DNA from: an uncultured Actinomycetes bacterium
GTDB taxonomy: Bacteria > Actinomycetota > Thermoleophilia > RBG-16-64-13
Assembly (NCBI GenBank): GCA_903873715.1
Contig: CAIQPS010000132.1
Coordinates: 1 to 34,122 of the forward strand
DNA length: 34,122 bases
Direction: 5' to 3'
In this document: positions 5,825 through 33,352 of the stretch, piece by piece
How positions within the stretch are numbered: position 1 is the first letter of the stretch
How the letters are laid out: each line of letters begins with the position of its first letter
Made by a program: the position numbers and the translations under genes
The notes under the pieces: generated by a model
The model's database searches: none
Told to the model about the DNA's origin: nothing
What the model saw: the letters and a program-made list of their open reading frames with translations, nothing else

Positions 5825-7768
5825 TCAGATGGTGGCCACTCTCCAAGCGGACTCGAACGCCTGCTTGAGGTCCTTCGCGGTCACGCAGTCGCCCACTTTG
5901 ACGACCTCGGGCGCTATGCCGTCGAACCTGCCTGCGGCGTCCTCGCGGGCCCGAAGACCGAGCGCGAGCACCACGGTATCGGCTTCGAGCAGGGCGGAGG
6001 TGCCTGAGCGCTCGGTGCAGGCCGCCCCGTCCGCGAGGCAGGCGTCGAAGCGGACGCCGGTCCGCACTTCCACCCCCGCGGCATGGAGGCGGTCGGTCAC
6101 CGCCATCACAGCCCAGGGGTTCGTTTCGTCCTTGAGTATCGAATCGAGCATCTCGATGAGCACGACCTTGCGCCCGGGCAGGCCGGCTGCGTAGATGGCA
6201 GTCTCGCAGCCCACTGTGCCGCCGCCCGCGACGACGACCCTGTCACCCACGGTGACGCGGCCCTGCAGGACGTCGTCAGGGAGGAGGTACGCCGGGGCAT
6301 CGGACGCTAGGGCGGGTGGCACGATGTAATCGGAACCGACCGCGACTATGACCGCCTCGGGGGCCTCGGCCCTCACCGCTGCAGCATCCGCTTCGCAGTT
6401 CAGCCGTATCTCCACGCCGCTCTTCTCGAGCCCGGTCTTCAGCCAGTCCAGGACAGGTCGCAGGGCCGACTTGAAGTCCGGGGCCACGGCCTCGAGGAGA
6501 TGCCCGCCCAGTCTGTCCGACCGTTCCATCAGGGTGACCTTATGCCCCCGCGCCGCGGCTACGCGCGCGGCCTCCATCCCCGCGGGCCCTCCGCCGACCA
6601 CGACCACCTTCTTCGGCCGCGCCGCCGGCTGCACGGCCGCCACCCGCGGGTAGAGGATGCAGCGCAGGTCTATCGGCGTTCCGGCCACGATCGCCTGGAT
6701 CATGTCGTCCACACACCGGTTGCAGCGCACACACGGACGGATGTCCTCCGGCCGCCTCTCAGCGACCTTCTTGGGCAGGTCGGGGTCGGCCAGCATGCTG
6801 CGGCCAAAGCCCGCCAGGTCGATCTTGCCGCTGGCGACGGCCTGTGCGGCCGTCTCCACGTTCATCGACCCTCCGCACAGCACAGGGATGTTCACGGCCA
6901 TCTTGATGCCGGTGGCCAAGTGCAGGTTGATGCCTGCGGGCATGTACTCGGTGGGGAACATGTACAGCGGGCTGTCGCCGGTGCCGGAGCTCGTCGAGAT
7001 GTAGTCGCAACCGGCTGCCTCGAGCATCCTCGCGAACCGCAGCACCTCGTCGTAGGTGATGCCGCCCGGCACCCGTTCGTCGGTGCACATGCGGTAGCCG
7101 ATCACGAAGTCGGGGCTCGTCGCCGCCCTCAGCCCCTTCAGGATGTCGAGTACCACTCGTGCCCGGTTCTGGAGCGGCCCACCGTACTCGTCGGTGCGCA
7201 GGTTGACCCTGGGGGAGAGGAACTGCATGAACAACAGATGGTGGGCGCCGTTCAACTCGACCCCATCGAAGCCGGCCTCATGTAGCCGTCTGCCGGCCTG
7301 CACGAAGCTGGCGGCTATCTCGTCGATCTTGGCCTTGTCCAGCGCCTTGGGCATCACACCGCCTGCTTCGGTGGGATTCGCGGATGGGGCGACCGGGTCG
7401 AGCCCCCCGATGATCTCCGGCCTTGTGCTGCCGCCGGCGTGCGCCAACTGGCAGATGATCGCCGCGCCGTGGCTCTTCACCGCTGTCGCCAGCTTTGTGA
7501 GCCCGGGTATGCACTTGTCGTCGTGGACGAGGACCGCTCCCACGGGGAGCACGCGGCTCTCCTTGTCGTCGGGACAGGTCCCTTCCGTGAGCACCAAGCC
7601 GATGCCGCCTTCGGCGTAGCGGACGGTGAACTGCACCAGCGCATCGGTGACGGTGCCGTCAGGGGCCGCCAGACCGGGCCCCATCGGCAACACGGCCATG
7701 CGGTTCTTGAGCGCGAGCGCACCCAGGCTGAACGGAGAATCGAGATGCGCGAGAATCCCGTGATCCAT
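5825..7768 (-). CDS. FAD/FMN/Fe-S oxidoreductase of the 2,4-dienoyl-CoA reductase / trimethylamine dehydrogenase class
   Basis: A 647-residue modular flavoenzyme. Residues 1-340 form an old-yellow-enzyme TIM barrel for FMN and substrate. Cys346, Cys349, Cys352 and Cys370 (CVRCNRC, then C after 17 residues) are placed to bind a 4Fe-4S cluster. Residues from about 386 carry an NAD(P)/FAD Rossmann motif VVVVGGGPAGMEA, and a second dinucleotide motif VVVAGGGTVGCETA is near 500. Such enzymes reduce enoates or oxidise amines. The usual active-site HGYL is replaced here by AHHLL (residues 175-179), so the catalytic Tyr is apparently absent and the substrate is uncertain. Start ATG 7768 has GAGGG about 9 nt upstream. 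It lies 13 bp after a small zinc-ribbon gene on the same strand. Confidence 0.9.
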   Translation of the reverse strand: MDHGILAHLDSPFSLGALALKNRMAVLPMGPGLAAPDGTVTDALVQFTVRYAEGGIGLVLTEGTCPDDKESRVLPVGAVLVHDDKCIPGLTKLATAVKSHGAAIICQLAHAGGSTRPEIIGGLDPVAPSANPTEAGGVMPKALDKAKIDEIAASFVQAGRRLHEAGFDGVELNGAHHLLFMQFLSPRVNLRTDEYGGPLQNRARVVLDILKGLRAATSPDFVIGYRMCTDERVPGGITYDEVLRFARMLEAAGCDYISTSSGTGDSPLYMFPTEYMPAGINLHLATGIKMAVNIPVLCGGSMNVETAAQAVASGKIDLAGFGRSMLADPDLPKKVAERRPEDIRPCVRCNRCVDDMIQAIVAGTPIDLRCILYPRVAAVQPAARPKKVVVVGGGPAGMEAARVAAARGHKVTLMERSDRLGGHLLEAVAPDFKSALRPVLDWLKTGLEKSGVEIRLNCEADAAAVRAEAPEAVIVAVGSDYIVPPALASDAPAYLLPDDVLQGRVTVGDRVVVAGGGTVGCETAIYAAGLPGRKVVLIEMLDSILKDETNPWAVMAVTDRLHAAGVEVRTGVRFDACLADGAACTERSGTSALLEADTVVLALGLRAREDAAGRFDGIAPEVVKVGDCVTAKDLKQAFESAWRVATI

Positions 7769-21442: not shown

Positions 21443-22227
21443 CGGAGGAGGAACCCTTCGCGGACGACGCGGACGACGCGGCCGCCTCGGCGGCGGCCGG
21501 TACCCGTCCTGCCGCCGGCGCCCTTCCGTTCGGCCCGGCCGAGGGCCCGCTCAGGACCCTCTTCGCATGGAGCAGCGGCAAGGACAGCGCCTACGCGCTC
21601 TGGACGCTGCAGCAACGGCCCGACATCGAACTGGTGGGGCTGCTCACCACCACCAACGAGTCCGTCGACCGGGTGGCCATGCATGGCGTGCGCCGTTCGG
21701 TGCTGGAAGCCCAAGCGCGGGCCTGCGGCCTGCCTCTCCACGTGGTGCCTCTGCCGGACCCCTGTACGGAAGAGCAGTACCGGGAGCGCATGGCGACGGC
21801 CGTCGAGCGTGCGCTGGCCGACGGGGTGCAGGCGATGGCCTTCGGCGACCTCTATCTTGCCGACGTGCGCGCCTACCGCGAAGCCCAGATGGCGGGCACG
21901 GGCATCACCCCGTTGTTCCCTCTGTGGGGGCGGCCGACCCGCGAGCTCGCCCGGCAGATGGTGGCGGACGGCTTCGAAGCGATCGTCACCTGCGTGGACA
22001 CCGAGCAACTGGACCGAGGCTTCGTCGGGCGGACGTTCGACGCGCCGCTGCTCGACGACCTGCCGGCCGACATCGACCCATGCGCGGAGAACGGCGAGTT
22101 CCACACGGTCGCCGTCGCCGGACCGGTCTTCTCAGCGCCGCTGGGCGTGGAGCTTGGGGAGATCGTGGAGCGGGGCCGGTTCGTCTTCGCGGACGTCCTC
22201 CCGAGGGACGAGCGAGGCGGCCGCTAG
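21439..22227 (+). CDS. Diphthine-ammonia-ligase-family ATP pyrophosphatase
   Basis: A 262-residue N-type ATP pyrophosphatase of the DUF71/TIGR00290 family. After an acidic, Ala-rich tail of about 37 residues comes the PP-loop WSSGKDSA (44-51), then FGDLYLADVRAYRE and the terminal family block DPCAENGEFHT. Archaeal and eukaryotic relatives amidate diphthine on elongation factor 2; bacteria lack diphthamide, so the real substrate here is unknown. TTG 21439 is chosen as it overlaps the RNB stop (TTGA) with AGAGGG upstream; no ATG occurs before the PP-loop. Its last 96 bases overlap the end of the convergent transporter gene. Confidence 0.88.
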   Translation: MTEEEPFADDADDAAASAAAGTRPAAGALPFGPAEGPLRTLFAWSSGKDSAYALWTLQQRPDIELVGLLTTTNESVDRVAMHGVRRSVLEAQARACGLPLHVVPLPDPCTEEQYRERMATAVERALADGVQAMAFGDLYLADVRAYREAQMAGTGITPLFPLWGRPTRELARQMVADGFEAIVTCVDTEQLDRGFVGRTFDAPLLDDLPADIDPCAENGEFHTVAVAGPVFSAPLGVELGEIVERGRFVFADVLPRDERGGR

Positions 22228-24075
22228 CCGCTGCGGTCCGTGCTCGAGGGGCACCGGGACGCTCATCGCCACCACCCAGGGGATGCGCAGCAGAGCGGCT
22301 TTGAGCCTGAGCGCCGCCTGGTTGTGGAGCGCGTTCTGCCAACCGTGTTCGACCACCAGTTCCGGGACGATGACGACCACGTTGTGGTGGGGGCTTGGGG
22401 TCAGCGAGCGCACGTACTGTAGCGCCGTGGCCACGAACCGTCCGGAATCGTCGGGTATCACCTCGAGGGGCACGTCCACACCCAGAGCCTGCCAGTCCGA
22501 GCGCAGCCGCGCGACCCTGGCCTCGTTGTTGGACACGGTGACGGCTACGAACCGATCGGATTGGAGTGAGGAGCCGATCGCCAGGGAGCGGGCGCTGAGT
22601 TCGTTCACCTGGGAGACGAACATCACCACGGTGGTATGCATGGGGCCTTGTGCGGAGGCGATCATCGCCCGAAGGGCGGAGTCACCTGGCGGTTCGAGCG
22701 CCTTGGCGATCCGGCGGTAGTGGCGATCGAGGTAGCCGAAGAAGAGCATGAGGATCATCGCTGCGACGAACACGATGTATGCGCCTTGCAGGAACTTCGT
22801 GGAGAGGACGACAGCGAGGACCACGCCGGTGAGCAGCGAACCGAAGCCGTTCATCACAGCCTTGCTCCTCCACCGGGCGCCGCGCACCCGGAACCAGTGG
22901 ACCACCATCCCGGCCTGCGAGAGGGTGAAGCTGCAGAACACCCCCACGGCGTAGAGGGGGATCATCCGGGTCACATCGCCAGAGAAGACCACGATGACCA
23001 CGATCGAGAGCGCCGCAAGGCCGATGATGCCGTTCGAGAACGCCAGCTTGTCGCCTCTGTTCATGAACTGCCGGGGCATCAGCCCGTCGCGGGCCAGGAT
23101 CGAGGAGAGCCTTGGGAAGTCCGCGAAGCTCGTGTTGGCGCCCATGAAGAGGATGGCCATGGTCGCGAACTGCAGGGCGAAGTAGAGGACGGTGCCGTTC
23201 CCGAAGACCGAGCGGGCGACCATGCTCAGGACGGTCTCGCTGCCGTCCTTGACCGGGCCTATCTGCAGATGTTGGGCGAGGGCCGTGACTCCCAGAAGGA
23301 AAGCGCCGAGGATCCCGGCCATGATGCCCAGGGTCAAGCCGGCGTTGCGGGCCTCCGGCGGCTTGAACGCGGGGACGCCGTTCGAGATAGCCTCAGTACC
23401 TGTCATGGCGGAACAGCCGCCGGAGAACGCCCGCAACACGAGATAGAGGGTCAGACCTCCCTGCGCGGCCACCTGGGGTGCCGAGACGACCGGATGGAGG
23501 CTGCCCGTGAGCCATCTGAACATGCCGACGAGGACGAGCCCACCGCACAGGATGATGAACGAGTAGGTGGGCAGGGAGAAGATGCGCCCCGAGTCCTTGA
23601 GGCCGCGCAGGTTCGCGAGTGTCATCACCACGACGATGGCCACCGAGATGATGACCCTGTAGCCGTGTAGCGACGGGAAGGCGGAGTCGATGGCGGCCAC
23701 TCCTGCCGCCACGCTCACCGCGACCGTCATCACATAGTCGATCATCAGGGAGGAGGCGGCCAACATGCCGGATTTCCGGCCCAGGTTGGCGGTGCTGACT
23801 ATGTATGAACCTCCACCTGAGGGATAGGCATGGACCGTCTGCTGGTAGGAGATGGCGACTATGGCCAGCAGCCCGGTCACCGCGATGCTGAGCGGGAACG
23901 CCCATTTCAGCGAGGCGGCGCCGGCCACCATAAGGACGAGGAGGATCTCTTCCGTGGCGTAGGCGGTGGAGGAGATGGCGTCTGACGAGAACACGGACAG
24001 GGCCAGCCACTTGGGCAGTCTGGCGTGCATCTCTTGGGCGGTGGCCACCGGTCTTCCGAGCACCACCCGTTTCAT
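22132..24075 (-). CDS. KimA-like potassium transporter (KUP/APC family)
   Basis: A 647-residue inner-membrane protein of the APC fold. The N-terminal region (LGRPVATAQEMHARLPKWLALSVFSSDAISS as its opening) and segments AYPSGGGSYIV, LMIDYVMTVAVSVAAG and SGGCSAMTGTEAISNGVPAF match KimA (YdaO) of Bacillus subtilis closely. KimA imports K+ with H+ and is controlled by c-di-AMP. About 12 hydrophobic helices precede a soluble C-terminal domain (from about 450) ending in LHNQAALRLKAAL, then a 30-residue extension not usual in the family. The next gene on the other side is a KdpDE-like pair, which supports a K+ role over amino-acid transport. ATG 24075 has a weak GAGAAG upstream; ATG 24090 is also possible. 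Confidence 0.87.
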   Translation of the reverse strand: MKRVVLGRPVATAQEMHARLPKWLALSVFSSDAISSTAYATEEILLVLMVAGAASLKWAFPLSIAVTGLLAIVAISYQQTVHAYPSGGGSYIVSTANLGRKSGMLAASSLMIDYVMTVAVSVAAGVAAIDSAFPSLHGYRVIISVAIVVVMTLANLRGLKDSGRIFSLPTYSFIILCGGLVLVGMFRWLTGSLHPVVSAPQVAAQGGLTLYLVLRAFSGGCSAMTGTEAISNGVPAFKPPEARNAGLTLGIMAGILGAFLLGVTALAQHLQIGPVKDGSETVLSMVARSVFGNGTVLYFALQFATMAILFMGANTSFADFPRLSSILARDGLMPRQFMNRGDKLAFSNGIIGLAALSIVVIVVFSGDVTRMIPLYAVGVFCSFTLSQAGMVVHWFRVRGARWRSKAVMNGFGSLLTGVVLAVVLSTKFLQGAYIVFVAAMILMLFFGYLDRHYRRIAKALEPPGDSALRAMIASAQGPMHTTVVMFVSQVNELSARSLAIGSSLQSDRFVAVTVSNNEARVARLRSDWQALGVDVPLEVIPDDSGRFVATALQYVRSLTPSPHHNVVVIVPELVVEHGWQNALHNQAALRLKAALLRIPWVVAMSVPVPLEHGPQRLAAASLVPREDVREDEPAPLHDLPKLHAQRR

Positions 24076-24285
24076 CGTGTGACTTCTCATGTCGTAAGGC
24101 GCCCCGCGCGCCCGATCGTTCCTGGTGTATACAAGAAGCGTGCCATTGCGGGCGTAGAGGCCGGGTGGAGATGCGGGGGCGGGGTATATAGAAGTCGTAT
24201 ATATCCGGCCGGACGGCGCTCCGCAGCGGACAGGAGGGCCCGCGCACCATCCCGTGGCTCGGCGGCCGGGAGTACACTTCGGGCT
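24076..24285. promoter_or_regulatory. Divergent control region between kimA-like and kdpD-like genes, with repeated GTATA motifs
   Basis: The 210-bp interval holds A/T-rich motifs in GC-rich surroundings: GTATACAAGAAGCG at 24127-24140, GTATATAGAAGTCG at 24184-24197 and GTATATATCC at 24197-24206. The first two agree at most positions and lie 57 bp apart; the second and third are 13 bp apart. They are candidate KdpE binding sites, or in part -10 elements. TACACT at 24273-24278 is 7 nt before the kdpD-like ATG, a leaderless-type -10. Confidence 0.5.
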
Positions 24286-26250
24286 ATGGAATCGGGAACT
24301 GACAGGCTGCTCGTCTGCATAGGTCCCAGCCCCACGTCGGCCAAGGTCATCCGGACGGCCGCGCGGATGGCGGCCTCCCTGGGCGTCCCCTGGACGGCCG
24401 CCTCGGTGGAGACGGGCCGTACGCGCGCACTCAGCGCAGGCGCCCGGGACGCCCTGCTCGAGAACATCACCCTCGCAGAACGGTCCGGCGCTGAGACCGT
24501 GACCCTCTCGGGCTACGACGTTGCCGACGAGATCCTGGCGTACGCCCGGGCCCACTCCGTCGGCCGCATCATCATCGGGAAGTCCAGGGAGCGCGGCTGG
24601 GAGGCCCTGGTCCGCGGCACCATCGTCGACAGGCTTCTGCGGGCGAGCGGGGACATCGATATCTACGTGGTGCAGGGGGCCGCCGAACCCAGACCGGCGC
24701 CGCAGGCCTCCGGCCGGCGGCGCCCAGACCGGCGCGGCTACCTCATCGCCCTGGCCGCGGTCATCGCCGCGTCGCTGGTGGCCTGGCTGCTTCACAGGGC
24801 GGGTCTCTCCGAGGCGAACCAGTCGGTGGTGTTCATCCTTGCCGTCATCGCCGCCGCGATCTGGGGCGGACTGGGGCCGGGGATAGCCGCCGCGGTCCTC
24901 TCCGTGCTCGCGTTCGACTACTTCTTCGTGCCCCCGTACCTGACCCTCGCCGTCGGGGACGTGCAGTACGTGGTGACCCTGCTCGTGCTCGCGGTCGTGG
25001 CTCTGCTCGTCGGGACGCTGGCCGCGAGGCTGCGAAGGCAGGTGGAGACGGCCCGCATGCGAGAGCGGCGCCTCGAGTCGCTGTACCGGCTCAGCGAGGC
25101 CCTTTCCGGAGCGTCCGGTGTGAGTGCCCTCGCCCTCGCCGCCGAACGGGAGCTGGCCGGCATATTCGAATCACCCGTGGCGGTGTACGTCCCGGGCGAG
25201 GACGGCGCGCTTGGACTCGCGCGCGCGCCGGAGCCGCAGAGCGGTCCGCGAGAGCCGGAAGCCGCCGCTTGGGCGTTCGCCAACGGCATGGTGGCCGGCG
25301 ATGGGGCCGGAGCCTTCCCTTCCGCCGGCGCTCTCTACGTCCCGATGGGCACCGCCCACGGGACGATCGGGGTCCTCGCGGTGAAATCGCCCAGGGCCGG
25401 GGCCCTTGCTTCGCCGGAGAACCGGCAACTGCTCGCCACGGCGGCCACCCAGATCGCGACGGCCATAGAGCGCGAGTTCCTGGCGGTGCGCACCCGAGCC
25501 TCGGCCCTCGAGGCGGAGACCGAGCGCATGCGGAGTTCGCTGCTCAGTTCCGTGTCCCACGACCTGAGGACGCCTCTCGCGGTGATAGCCGGCACCACCG
25601 GCACGCTCCTGGGGCTCGGCGAGGGTGCTGACCCTTCCACCCGGCAGCAGTTGCTCACGGAGGTGTCCGAAGAATCCGACCGCCTGGCCCGCCTGGTCGA
25701 GAACCTGCTCGCGATGACCCGCCTGGATTCTGGGCGGATCACTCCCGCGAAGGAATGGTTCCCCCTGGAAGACGTAATCGGGTCGGCGCTTGGGCGCTTG
25801 AAGAAGCAGGCGCGGGGCCGGAAGATCGACAAACACATCCCCGCGGACCTCCCGCCGGTGCCGCTCGACGGGGTCATGATCGAGCAGGTGCTCTTCAATC
25901 TCGTCGACAACGCTCTCAAATACTCGCCCGTCGATGCGCCGGTGGAGATCTCGGTGTCGGCGGGGGCGGACGAGGTGGTCATCGAGGTGGCCGACCGTGG
26001 TCCCGGCCTGGCCGCGAACGAGACCCGCGCGGTGTTCGAGAAGCTCTATAGGGGGACGGCGGCCGCCGGGAACGCGCGCGGAGCCGGGTTGGGGTTGGCC
26101 ATAGCCCAAGCCATCGTCCAGGTGCATGGCGGGAGGATCTGGGCGGCCAACCGCCCGGGAGGCGGTGCGGTGTTCACGTTCACCCTGCCGCTCGGGGCCC
26201 CTCCGGCCGACCTGGGGGCCTTCGACGACGGTCCGCTCGAGGAGGAGTGA
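24286..26250 (+). CDS. KdpD-like sensor kinase lacking the N-terminal KdpD domain
   Basis: A 654-residue membrane histidine kinase against about 890 for full KdpD. It begins directly with the USP-like domain (7-130, RIIIGKSRERGWEALVRG), then the four-helix DUF4118 membrane block (152-248), a GAF-like region (about 270-395), His425 in SSVSHDLRTPLAV, and an ATPase domain (N box VLFNLVDNALKYS, G boxes VADRGPGLA and GAGLGLA). The N-terminal ATP-binding KdpD domain (GxxPGVGKT) is absent and is not encoded upstream, because the transporter gene diverges there. ATG 24286 has no SD but a TANNNT 7 nt upstream. It likely senses K+ or turgor and controls the transporter next to it. The kdpE-like gene overlaps its stop. 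Confidence 0.9.
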   Translation: MESGTDRLLVCIGPSPTSAKVIRTAARMAASLGVPWTAASVETGRTRALSAGARDALLENITLAERSGAETVTLSGYDVADEILAYARAHSVGRIIIGKSRERGWEALVRGTIVDRLLRASGDIDIYVVQGAAEPRPAPQASGRRRPDRRGYLIALAAVIAASLVAWLLHRAGLSEANQSVVFILAVIAAAIWGGLGPGIAAAVLSVLAFDYFFVPPYLTLAVGDVQYVVTLLVLAVVALLVGTLAARLRRQVETARMRERRLESLYRLSEALSGASGVSALALAAERELAGIFESPVAVYVPGEDGALGLARAPEPQSGPREPEAAAWAFANGMVAGDGAGAFPSAGALYVPMGTAHGTIGVLAVKSPRAGALASPENRQLLATAATQIATAIEREFLAVRTRASALEAETERMRSSLLSSVSHDLRTPLAVIAGTTGTLLGLGEGADPSTRQQLLTEVSEESDRLARLVENLLAMTRLDSGRITPAKEWFPLEDVIGSALGRLKKQARGRKIDKHIPADLPPVPLDGVMIEQVLFNLVDNALKYSPVDAPVEISVSAGADEVVIEVADRGPGLAANETRAVFEKLYRGTAAAGNARGAGLGLAIAQAIVQVHGGRIWAANRPGGGAVFTFTLPLGAPPADLGAFDDGPLEEE

Positions 26251-26966
26251 TGACGAACGATCAGGGCGTCCCATCCAACGTGCTCGTGATCGAGGACGAC
26301 GTGCCGATGCGCCGTTTCCTGCGGGCGGCCCTGGAGAACGAGGGCTACCGGGTGACCGAGGCAGGCAAGGCGCGGGAGGGCATGACCATGATCCTCGGCC
26401 ATCCCCCCGACCTCATCCTGCTCGACCTGGGCCTGCCGGACGCCGACGGCATGACCGTCCTCCGCCGGGTGCGCGAATGGTCGCAGGTACCGGTGCTCGT
26501 GCTGTCTGCCCGCGGGCAGGAGTATGACAAGGTCGAGGCGCTCAACGAGGGCGCGGACGACTATCTCACCAAGCCGTTCGGGGTCCCCGAGTTGCTCGCC
26601 CGGGTCCGCGTAGCCCTGCGGCATTCGGCGCGCATCAAAGCAGGGGCCGGAGAGGGCGCCGCCCGGTTCGAGTCCGGCGACCTTACCGTCGACCTGGGGG
26701 CCCGGCGGGTGACCGCCAAGGGCGCCGACGTCCATCTGACCCGGACGGAATACCGCCTGCTCGCCCTGTTCGTGCGGAACGCCGGAAAGGTGTTGACGCA
26801 CCGCTACCTGCTGCAGGAGGTCTGGGGGCCGGGCTGCGAGTTGCAGACCCACTACCCGCGGATGTACGTGGCGGCCTTGCGGCGTAAGCTGGAGGAAGAC
26901 CCGGCCGACCCGAAGTATCTGCTCACCGAGCAAGGGGTGGGCTACCGGTTCACCGAGGGGACCTAG
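26250..26966 (+). CDS. kdpE: KdpE-like response regulator (OmpR/PhoB class)
   Basis: A 238-residue DNA-binding regulator. The receiver domain has VIEDDVPMR, phosphoacceptor Asp59 (LILLDLGLPD) and LTKPFGVPELLARVR. The winged helix at the C-terminus contains LTRTEYRLLALFVRNAGKVL-type residues and ends GVGYRF, typical of KdpE. ATG 26250 shares its A with the kdpD-like TGA stop, with AGGAGG 4 nt upstream. No KdpFABC genes are in view, so its likely local target is the divergent KimA-like gene. Confidence 0.92.
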   Translation: MTNDQGVPSNVLVIEDDVPMRRFLRAALENEGYRVTEAGKAREGMTMILGHPPDLILLDLGLPDADGMTVLRRVREWSQVPVLVLSARGQEYDKVEALNEGADDYLTKPFGVPELLARVRVALRHSARIKAGAGEGAARFESGDLTVDLGARRVTAKGADVHLTRTEYRLLALFVRNAGKVLTHRYLLQEVWGPGCELQTHYPRMYVAALRRKLEEDPADPKYLLTEQGVGYRFTEGT

Positions 26967-26974
26967 GAGGGAGC

Positions 26975-27262
26975 ATGCCCGCATACGTCTTCGCCAACAT
27001 CCGAGTGGACGAGCCCATCGCCTACCAGCGGTACGTCCAGTTGGTCCCCGGGACGATAGAGAAGTACGGCGGGCGCTACCTGGCCAGAGGGGGACGCGTC
27101 GAGGTCCTCGAGGGCGACACGCAGCCGGGGCGCACCATCATCATCGAGTTCCCCACCTTCGAGGATGCCCAGCGCTGGTACACCTCGCCCGAGTACTGTG
27201 CGGCCAAAGACGTCCGTCACGCCTGCGCCCGCGCGGACCTGGTGATCATCGACGGGGTCTGA
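26975..27262 (+). CDS. DUF1330 family protein
   Basis: A 95-residue dimeric alpha-beta-barrel-type protein of the DUF1330 family: PAYVFANIRVDEPIAYQRY at the N-terminus, KYGGRYLARGG in the middle and EFPTFEDAQRWYTSPEY near the C-terminus. Function unknown; relatives include possible small monooxygenases or binding proteins. AGGAGG lies just upstream of ATG 26975 and the gap to the kdpE-like gene is 8 bp, so it is probably co-transcribed with the kinase and regulator. Confidence 0.88.
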   Translation: MPAYVFANIRVDEPIAYQRYVQLVPGTIEKYGGRYLARGGRVEVLEGDTQPGRTIIIEFPTFEDAQRWYTSPEYCAAKDVRHACARADLVIIDGV

Positions 27263-33293: not shown

Positions 33294-33352
33294 CGCCGTC
33301 CCATGCTTTTCATCGGAGTGGCTAGATATTTGCCTACCGGCACAATACCATG

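Follow-up and report, generated by a model that had tools for sequence, protein, structure and literature searches.

This locus raises the question of what the repeated GTATA motifs in the gap between the divergent genes kimA and kdpD are for, and whether the neighboring response regulator KdpE uses them as a binding site. The window, i.e. the whole stretch of DNA that was analysed, comprises 34,122 bp with a GC content of 67%. Its plus strand contains five GTATA copies, three of them within the kimA/kdpD gap, and the longer form GTATATA has no plus-strand copy in the window outside this gap. The following features are needed for the analysis:

22132..24090, minus strand: kimA, K+/H+ symporter of the APC/KUP type (Pfam, phmmer)
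24091..24285, no strand: divergent control region, 195 bp between kimA (minus) and kdpD-kdpE (plus)
Start 24127, plus strand: GTATACAAGAAGCG, GTATA copy 1
Start 24184, plus strand: GTATATAGAAGTCG, GTATA copy 2, 57 bp past copy 1
Start 24197, plus strand: GTATATATCC, GTATA copy 3, 13 bp past copy 2
24286..26250, plus strand: short kdpD, 654 aa, with Usp, DUF4118 membrane domain, GAF, HisKA and HATPase
26247..26966, plus strand: kdpE, OmpR-type response regulator, 239 aa, overlapping the end of kdpD

The first-pass annotation had described two similar 14-mers 57 bp apart and a follower at 13 bp as good candidates for KdpE boxes, and the exact positions of all three elements could be confirmed. 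The two 14-mers at 24127 and 24184 are identical at 9 of 14 positions without gaps. The 20-mer GTATATAGAAGTCGTATATA occurs a single time in the 3.33-Mb genome, with up to 3 mismatches allowed, and is therefore not a repeated genomic element.

The gene names given in that annotation were correct as well. The kimA product matches Pfam AA_permease_2 (6.5e-30), and its residues 4-602 match the solved KimA of B. subtilis (6s3k) with a phmmer E value of 1.1e-127. This homology spans the membrane and the cytosolic parts and identifies the protein as KimA; an NCBIfam match for the product was not obtained. As read from the sequence, translation may start at ATG 24090 or at ATG 24075, the latter with a Shine-Dalgarno-like GAGAAG ahead. 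By domain and model matches the opposite gene pair is KdpD/KdpE-like. KdpD of the window keeps the C-terminal Usp-DUF4118-GAF-HisKA-HATPase architecture, and PF02702, the N-terminal KdpD domain with the Walker A/B motifs, is missing from it and gave zero hits genome-wide. The NCBIfam KdpD model accordingly aligned only from model position 250, with 483 bits at a cut-off of 1123. For KdpE the best NCBIfam model was KdpE itself (265.8 bits, below the equivalog cut-off of 325). An alignment to 4kny placed R, R and T at the positions of R193, R200 and T215, the DNA-contact residues of E. coli KdpE (PMC3264566), and assigned the protein to the OmpR/PhoB type. A DUF1330 gene is located immediately 3' of kdpE (26975-27262, plus strand).

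KdpA gave no hit in the genome of the window (3.33 Mb, 96.9% complete); judged by this search, KdpFABC appears to be missing. Among 18 family genomes searched, KdpA was detected in four (G004, G005, G006 and G009) and PF02702 over the cut-off in five, namely the same four and G011. PMC11018627 describes the N-terminal domain of KdpD as a serine kinase with KdpB as its substrate, so that the loss of this domain would fit the loss of the pump. The Usp domain of the window KdpD shows no match to the c-di-AMP motif (A/G/C)XSXSX2N reported for KdpD of Firmicutes (PMC8214093), and c-di-AMP sensing by this protein is therefore not assumed.

From the sequence we propose that 24091-24285 is a shared promoter, in which the adjacent KdpE probably binds 24184-24204 and switches on kimA, with KdpDE re-assigned from KdpFABC. 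Scarce K+ would activate the short KdpD, which would phosphorylate KdpE. KdpE would then bind 24184-24204 as one diverged operator made of the GTATATA pair, and the bound regulator would raise kimA. KdpDE would thus have moved from the P-type pump KdpFABC to the KimA symporter, and the missing serine-kinase domain of KdpD is consistent with such a re-assignment. Two sites in the gap come into question:

24184..24204, minus strand: candidate KdpE box ATATATACGACTTCTATATAC, oriented towards kimA
24127..24147, minus strand: weak second candidate AATGGCACGCTTCTTGTATAC

In E. coli the KdpE half-sites are TTTATA and TTTACA with 5 bp between them, and the footprint extends from -72 to -50; both half-sites begin with TTTA, and dinucleotide mutants of TTTA lost binding (PMC3264566). 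The candidate box reads ATA-TATACG-ACTTC-TATATA-C on the minus strand, with the half-sites TATACG (24201-24196) and TATATA (24190-24185) in an 11-bp phase. In each of them TATA replaces TTTA, the defining feature of the E. coli sites, which the candidate box lacks. Because TATATA has a period of two bases, the visible 13-bp repeat masks the 11-bp phase.

The KdpE reading was first judged wrong on the basis of a strict test, in which matches to TTTTAC-N5-TTTTAC were counted (maximum 12) and compared with 500 shuffles per region. The gap of the window reached 7 of 12, a chance-level result that 266 of 500 shuffles also reached. The same test yielded 10 for kdpF of G006 (2/500) and 11 each for kdpF of G004 (1/500), the loci L039 and L060 (both 0/500) and E. 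coli (5/500); the regions of G005, G009 and G011 were not outstanding.

This rejection was overturned by a 21-bp profile. The first version was built from 12 KdpE boxes (eight Rokubacterial boxes at quarter weight, the kdp boxes of G006 and G004, L060 and E. coli), and the window was left out of all KdpE-box profiles. The site 24184-24204 (minus) ranked first of the 68,204 positions in the window with 13.5 bits and 24127-24147 (minus) third with 10.2 bits. Permutations of their own letters reached these scores in 55 and 31 of 20,000 cases, respectively, and A/T-matched stretches of other loci in 10 of 5,798 and 22 of 95,900. When 24076-24285 was shuffled in blocks of 20 nt, the best score was reached in 2 of 400 shuffles and both scores in 0 of 400. 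The ranks of the two sites vary with the training set: they were 1 and 41 with Rokubacterial boxes only, 6 and 51 with the G006 and G004 boxes only, and 1 and 3 both without the Rokubacterial and without the family boxes. In leave-one-out runs the known boxes ranked first in L168, L169 and E. coli and second in L060. The profile without Rokubacterial boxes placed the box first in eight of nine Rokubacterial loci; the ninth, L255, has none.

For a refined profile six boxes were added (G004 kimA, L216, L083, L088, G011 and G009), most of them noticed via the first profile. The 24184 site now scored 18.4 bits, the next site in the window 11.4 bits and the 24127 site 9.6 bits (rank 5). Of 400 simulated windows, 3 had a site reaching 18.4 bits, as did none of 5000 block-shuffled versions of the gap; all boxes that build the refined profile score higher (19.6-35.3). 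The 18.4-bit figure is partly circular because the added sites were partly found by the first version, whereas the 13.5-bit figure is not. Within 243,335 bases from 29 GC-rich loci, nine rows exceeded 18.4 bits, corresponding to eight places since one was fetched twice; most belong to the training set, and L215 and L214 lie outside it. A degenerate KdpE pattern gave one match genome-wide, at an unrelated place near a moeA-like start, equal to the control. A sequence-only covariance model of the boxes was too short to be informative: at E <=10 it found no match in four genomes, despite its own training boxes in G004, G006 and G011, and none in the window.

The idea of KdpE boxes in the gap thus gains partial support at 24184-24204, the top site of a profile that does not contain the window, but not in the visible 13-bp GTATATA register. 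At 24127 there is at best a weak lone half-site, and the resemblance to KdpE boxes is limited to the second half-site TGTATA (24133-24128).

Conservation was assessed indirectly, in family relatives from outside the genus. KdpE of G004 is 71% identical to KdpE of the window, and the recognition-helix stretch HYPRMYVA is common to KdpE of the window, G006 and G004. One kimA operon of G004 is preceded by the box ATTGTTACGTTTTCTATACAG, which matches 24184-24204 at 14 of 21 positions and likewise has TATA in the second half-site. Permuted letters reached this match in 57 of 200,000 cases, and the position 33344 (plus) in the window likewise scores 14 against the G004 kimA box. The kdp boxes of G004 and G006 match the 24184 site at 11 and 10 of 21 positions and do not pick it out. 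G011 likewise has kimA and kdpDE in divergent orientation, there with a full-length KdpD and a weaker box between the two genes. The kimA genes of G006 (L151), the other kimA pair in the genome of the window (L155) and G035 (L217), where the kdp genes and kimA share one contig, showed no box. In G004 an ORF of at most 159 aa that resembles the cytosolic C-terminal part of KimA was observed (L156:6104-6615, G004:C146); it lies on the same strand ahead of a full kimA and is itself preceded by a KdpE-like box.

A GTDB genome scan with the short KdpD as query, from which 80 loci were kept, revealed a divergent APC transporter before a PF02702-less KdpD in two of them. In L039 (titled Rokubacteria) the transporter is a KimA with 45% identity, in L060 (titled Herminiimonas) an APC protein with 26% identity. 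Neither of the two genomes, whose completeness is not given, yielded a KdpA hit. KdpD of L039 has neither PF02702 nor Usp. In L060 a second strong KdpE-like site at 7490-7510 (minus, 24.0 bits) scores above the site located between transporter and kdpD. Within the phylum-level group to which L039 belongs, matches came from 48 of 95 genomes, and 30 loci were fetched. kimA is divergent from a short kdpD in nine of these (L227-L233, L239 and L255), the locus of L039 included; in L250 it lies upstream of the short kdpD on the same strand. A box of the ATTTTTACGnnnTTTTTACGG type is present in eight of the nine loci, at a distance of some 55-57 bp from the start of kimA. Between box and kdpD, the kdpD-side operon of L227 and L228 starts with a small ORF (105 and 107 aa, respectively); the two ORFs resemble each other and contain hydrophobic stretches, but no consistent counterpart was seen in the other six loci.

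The Rokubacterial loci resemble the window in the divergent kimA and the PF02702-less KdpD, and eight of the nine have a box in the gap, where the window has its candidate. They differ in that their boxes are near the consensus and lie on the kdpD-facing strand, whereas the candidate box of the window faces kimA, and in that the window KdpD has the Usp domain that KdpD of L039 lacks. Whether KdpDE switched from KdpFABC to KimA at least twice, in the lineage of the window and in the Rokubacterial clade, we regard as evenly balanced; in this scenario genomes with no KdpA hit would have lost the serine-kinase domain of KdpD, and a KdpE box in the shared kimA/kdpD promoter would stand in place of c-di-AMP riboswitch control at that kimA copy.

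Such a riboswitch (RF00379) precedes kimA in four of the 12 kimA loci scanned from relatives and the genome itself, i.e. in L153 of G011, L160 of G012, L161 of G003 and L167 of G004. No riboswitch was found at kimA of the window even at E <=5, and RF00379 was absent from the whole window, the thirteenth source scanned; the window has the same transporter as the riboswitch-controlled loci but not this element. In 24091..24285 no Rfam element at all was found at this threshold. The same genome contains two more kimA genes in tandem (L155, G000:C75:9000-18500), which are 57-60% identical to kimA of the window; neither riboswitch nor KdpE-like box was found at this pair.

Consensus scans detected neither a promoter nor a terminator, including a sigma-70 promoter in 24091..24285, and consensus and hexamer scans revealed no clear -35/-10 for kimA of the window. 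On the kdpD side, the sequence and the hexamer scan suggest one element:

24273..24278, plus strand: TACACT, possible -10 of a leaderless kdpD transcript

TACACT has no good -35 partner, and the putative leaderless start would be ATG 24286. On the other side, TATACA (24131-24126, minus) could be an alternative -10 of kimA. This leads to the explanation that the A/T-rich motifs are simply core promoter, with TATACA as the -10 of kimA and the TATATA pair as part of further -10 or UP-like elements of either gene, and that KdpE is not involved. A divergent promoter must lie where the TATA-type hexamers are, and TATACA has four of six -10 matches and would give a leader of about 45 nt to ATG 24075. 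However, the candidate hexamers within the GTATA motifs all lack T as their sixth base, the best -35 partners reach 1-4 of 6 matches, and the consensus scan found no promoter. As this explanation also leaves the profile match and the 14/21 match to G004 unaccounted for, we consider it unlikely.

Even less probable is an operator for another regulator, e.g. a dimeric repressor acting on TATATA-N7-TATATA or on the TGTATACA palindromes. The 13-bp repeat is unfit for KdpE phasing, and both TATATA and TGTATACA are self-complementary, which makes a dyad reading as natural as a direct-repeat reading. However, the 20-mer has no second genomic copy, no known factor was identified, and the 11-bp KdpE reading beats the composition controls. 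It is very improbable that the motifs are a chance A/T-rich island with no specific function. The low strict-consensus score might suggest this, as might the fact that among the other kimA genes of the family only G004 and, weakly, G011 showed a similar site. On the other hand, none of 300 simulated windows (first-order Markov) had three GTATA copies as close as 80 bp, and the best-scoring profile site in the window falls into the sole region named beforehand.

The preferred reading, activation of kimA by KdpE, resembles the kdpFABC/KdpDE system of E. coli in the OmpR-type KdpE with conserved DNA-contact residues and in the candidate A/T-rich direct-repeat half-sites with an 11-bp phase beside a K+ importer gene. 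It differs in that the target would be KimA instead of KdpFABC, in the TATA instead of TTTA half-sites, in the KdpD without N-terminal serine-kinase domain and in the divergent rather than operonic layout. The elements are already known; their combination is new. The literature searched mentioned an action of KdpDE on kimA neither in titles and abstract openings nor in passages of PMC10117811 and PMC9945522. Recent work (PMC11018627) showed that KdpD has two roles, one as a sensor for transcription and one as a serine kinase by which the KdpB pump is shut off. If our reading is true, a KdpDE system without pump or serine-kinase domain opposite kimA would represent a natural separation of these two functions; the histidine-kinase half would work alone and could be handed another transporter. 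The site 24184-24204 would then be a testable candidate KdpE box outside kdpFABC.

Shortened KdpD proteins exist elsewhere. The survey part of PMC11018627 describes KdpD chains with only the histidine kinase (TM/GAF/DHpCA), which are paired with a separate serine-kinase chain; it is restricted to species in which a Kdp pump is annotated, and almost all of these retain the serine-kinase domain. In the genome of the window, in contrast, both KdpA and the serine-kinase domain are missing. The short KdpDs of family f6 were rejected as parallels, since in them PF02702 is retained and it is the kinase part that is missing. In this family (L209-L214), neither the histidine-kinase part of KdpD nor KdpE was matched, and KdpD with PF02702, Usp and DUF4118 is located next to kdpAB.
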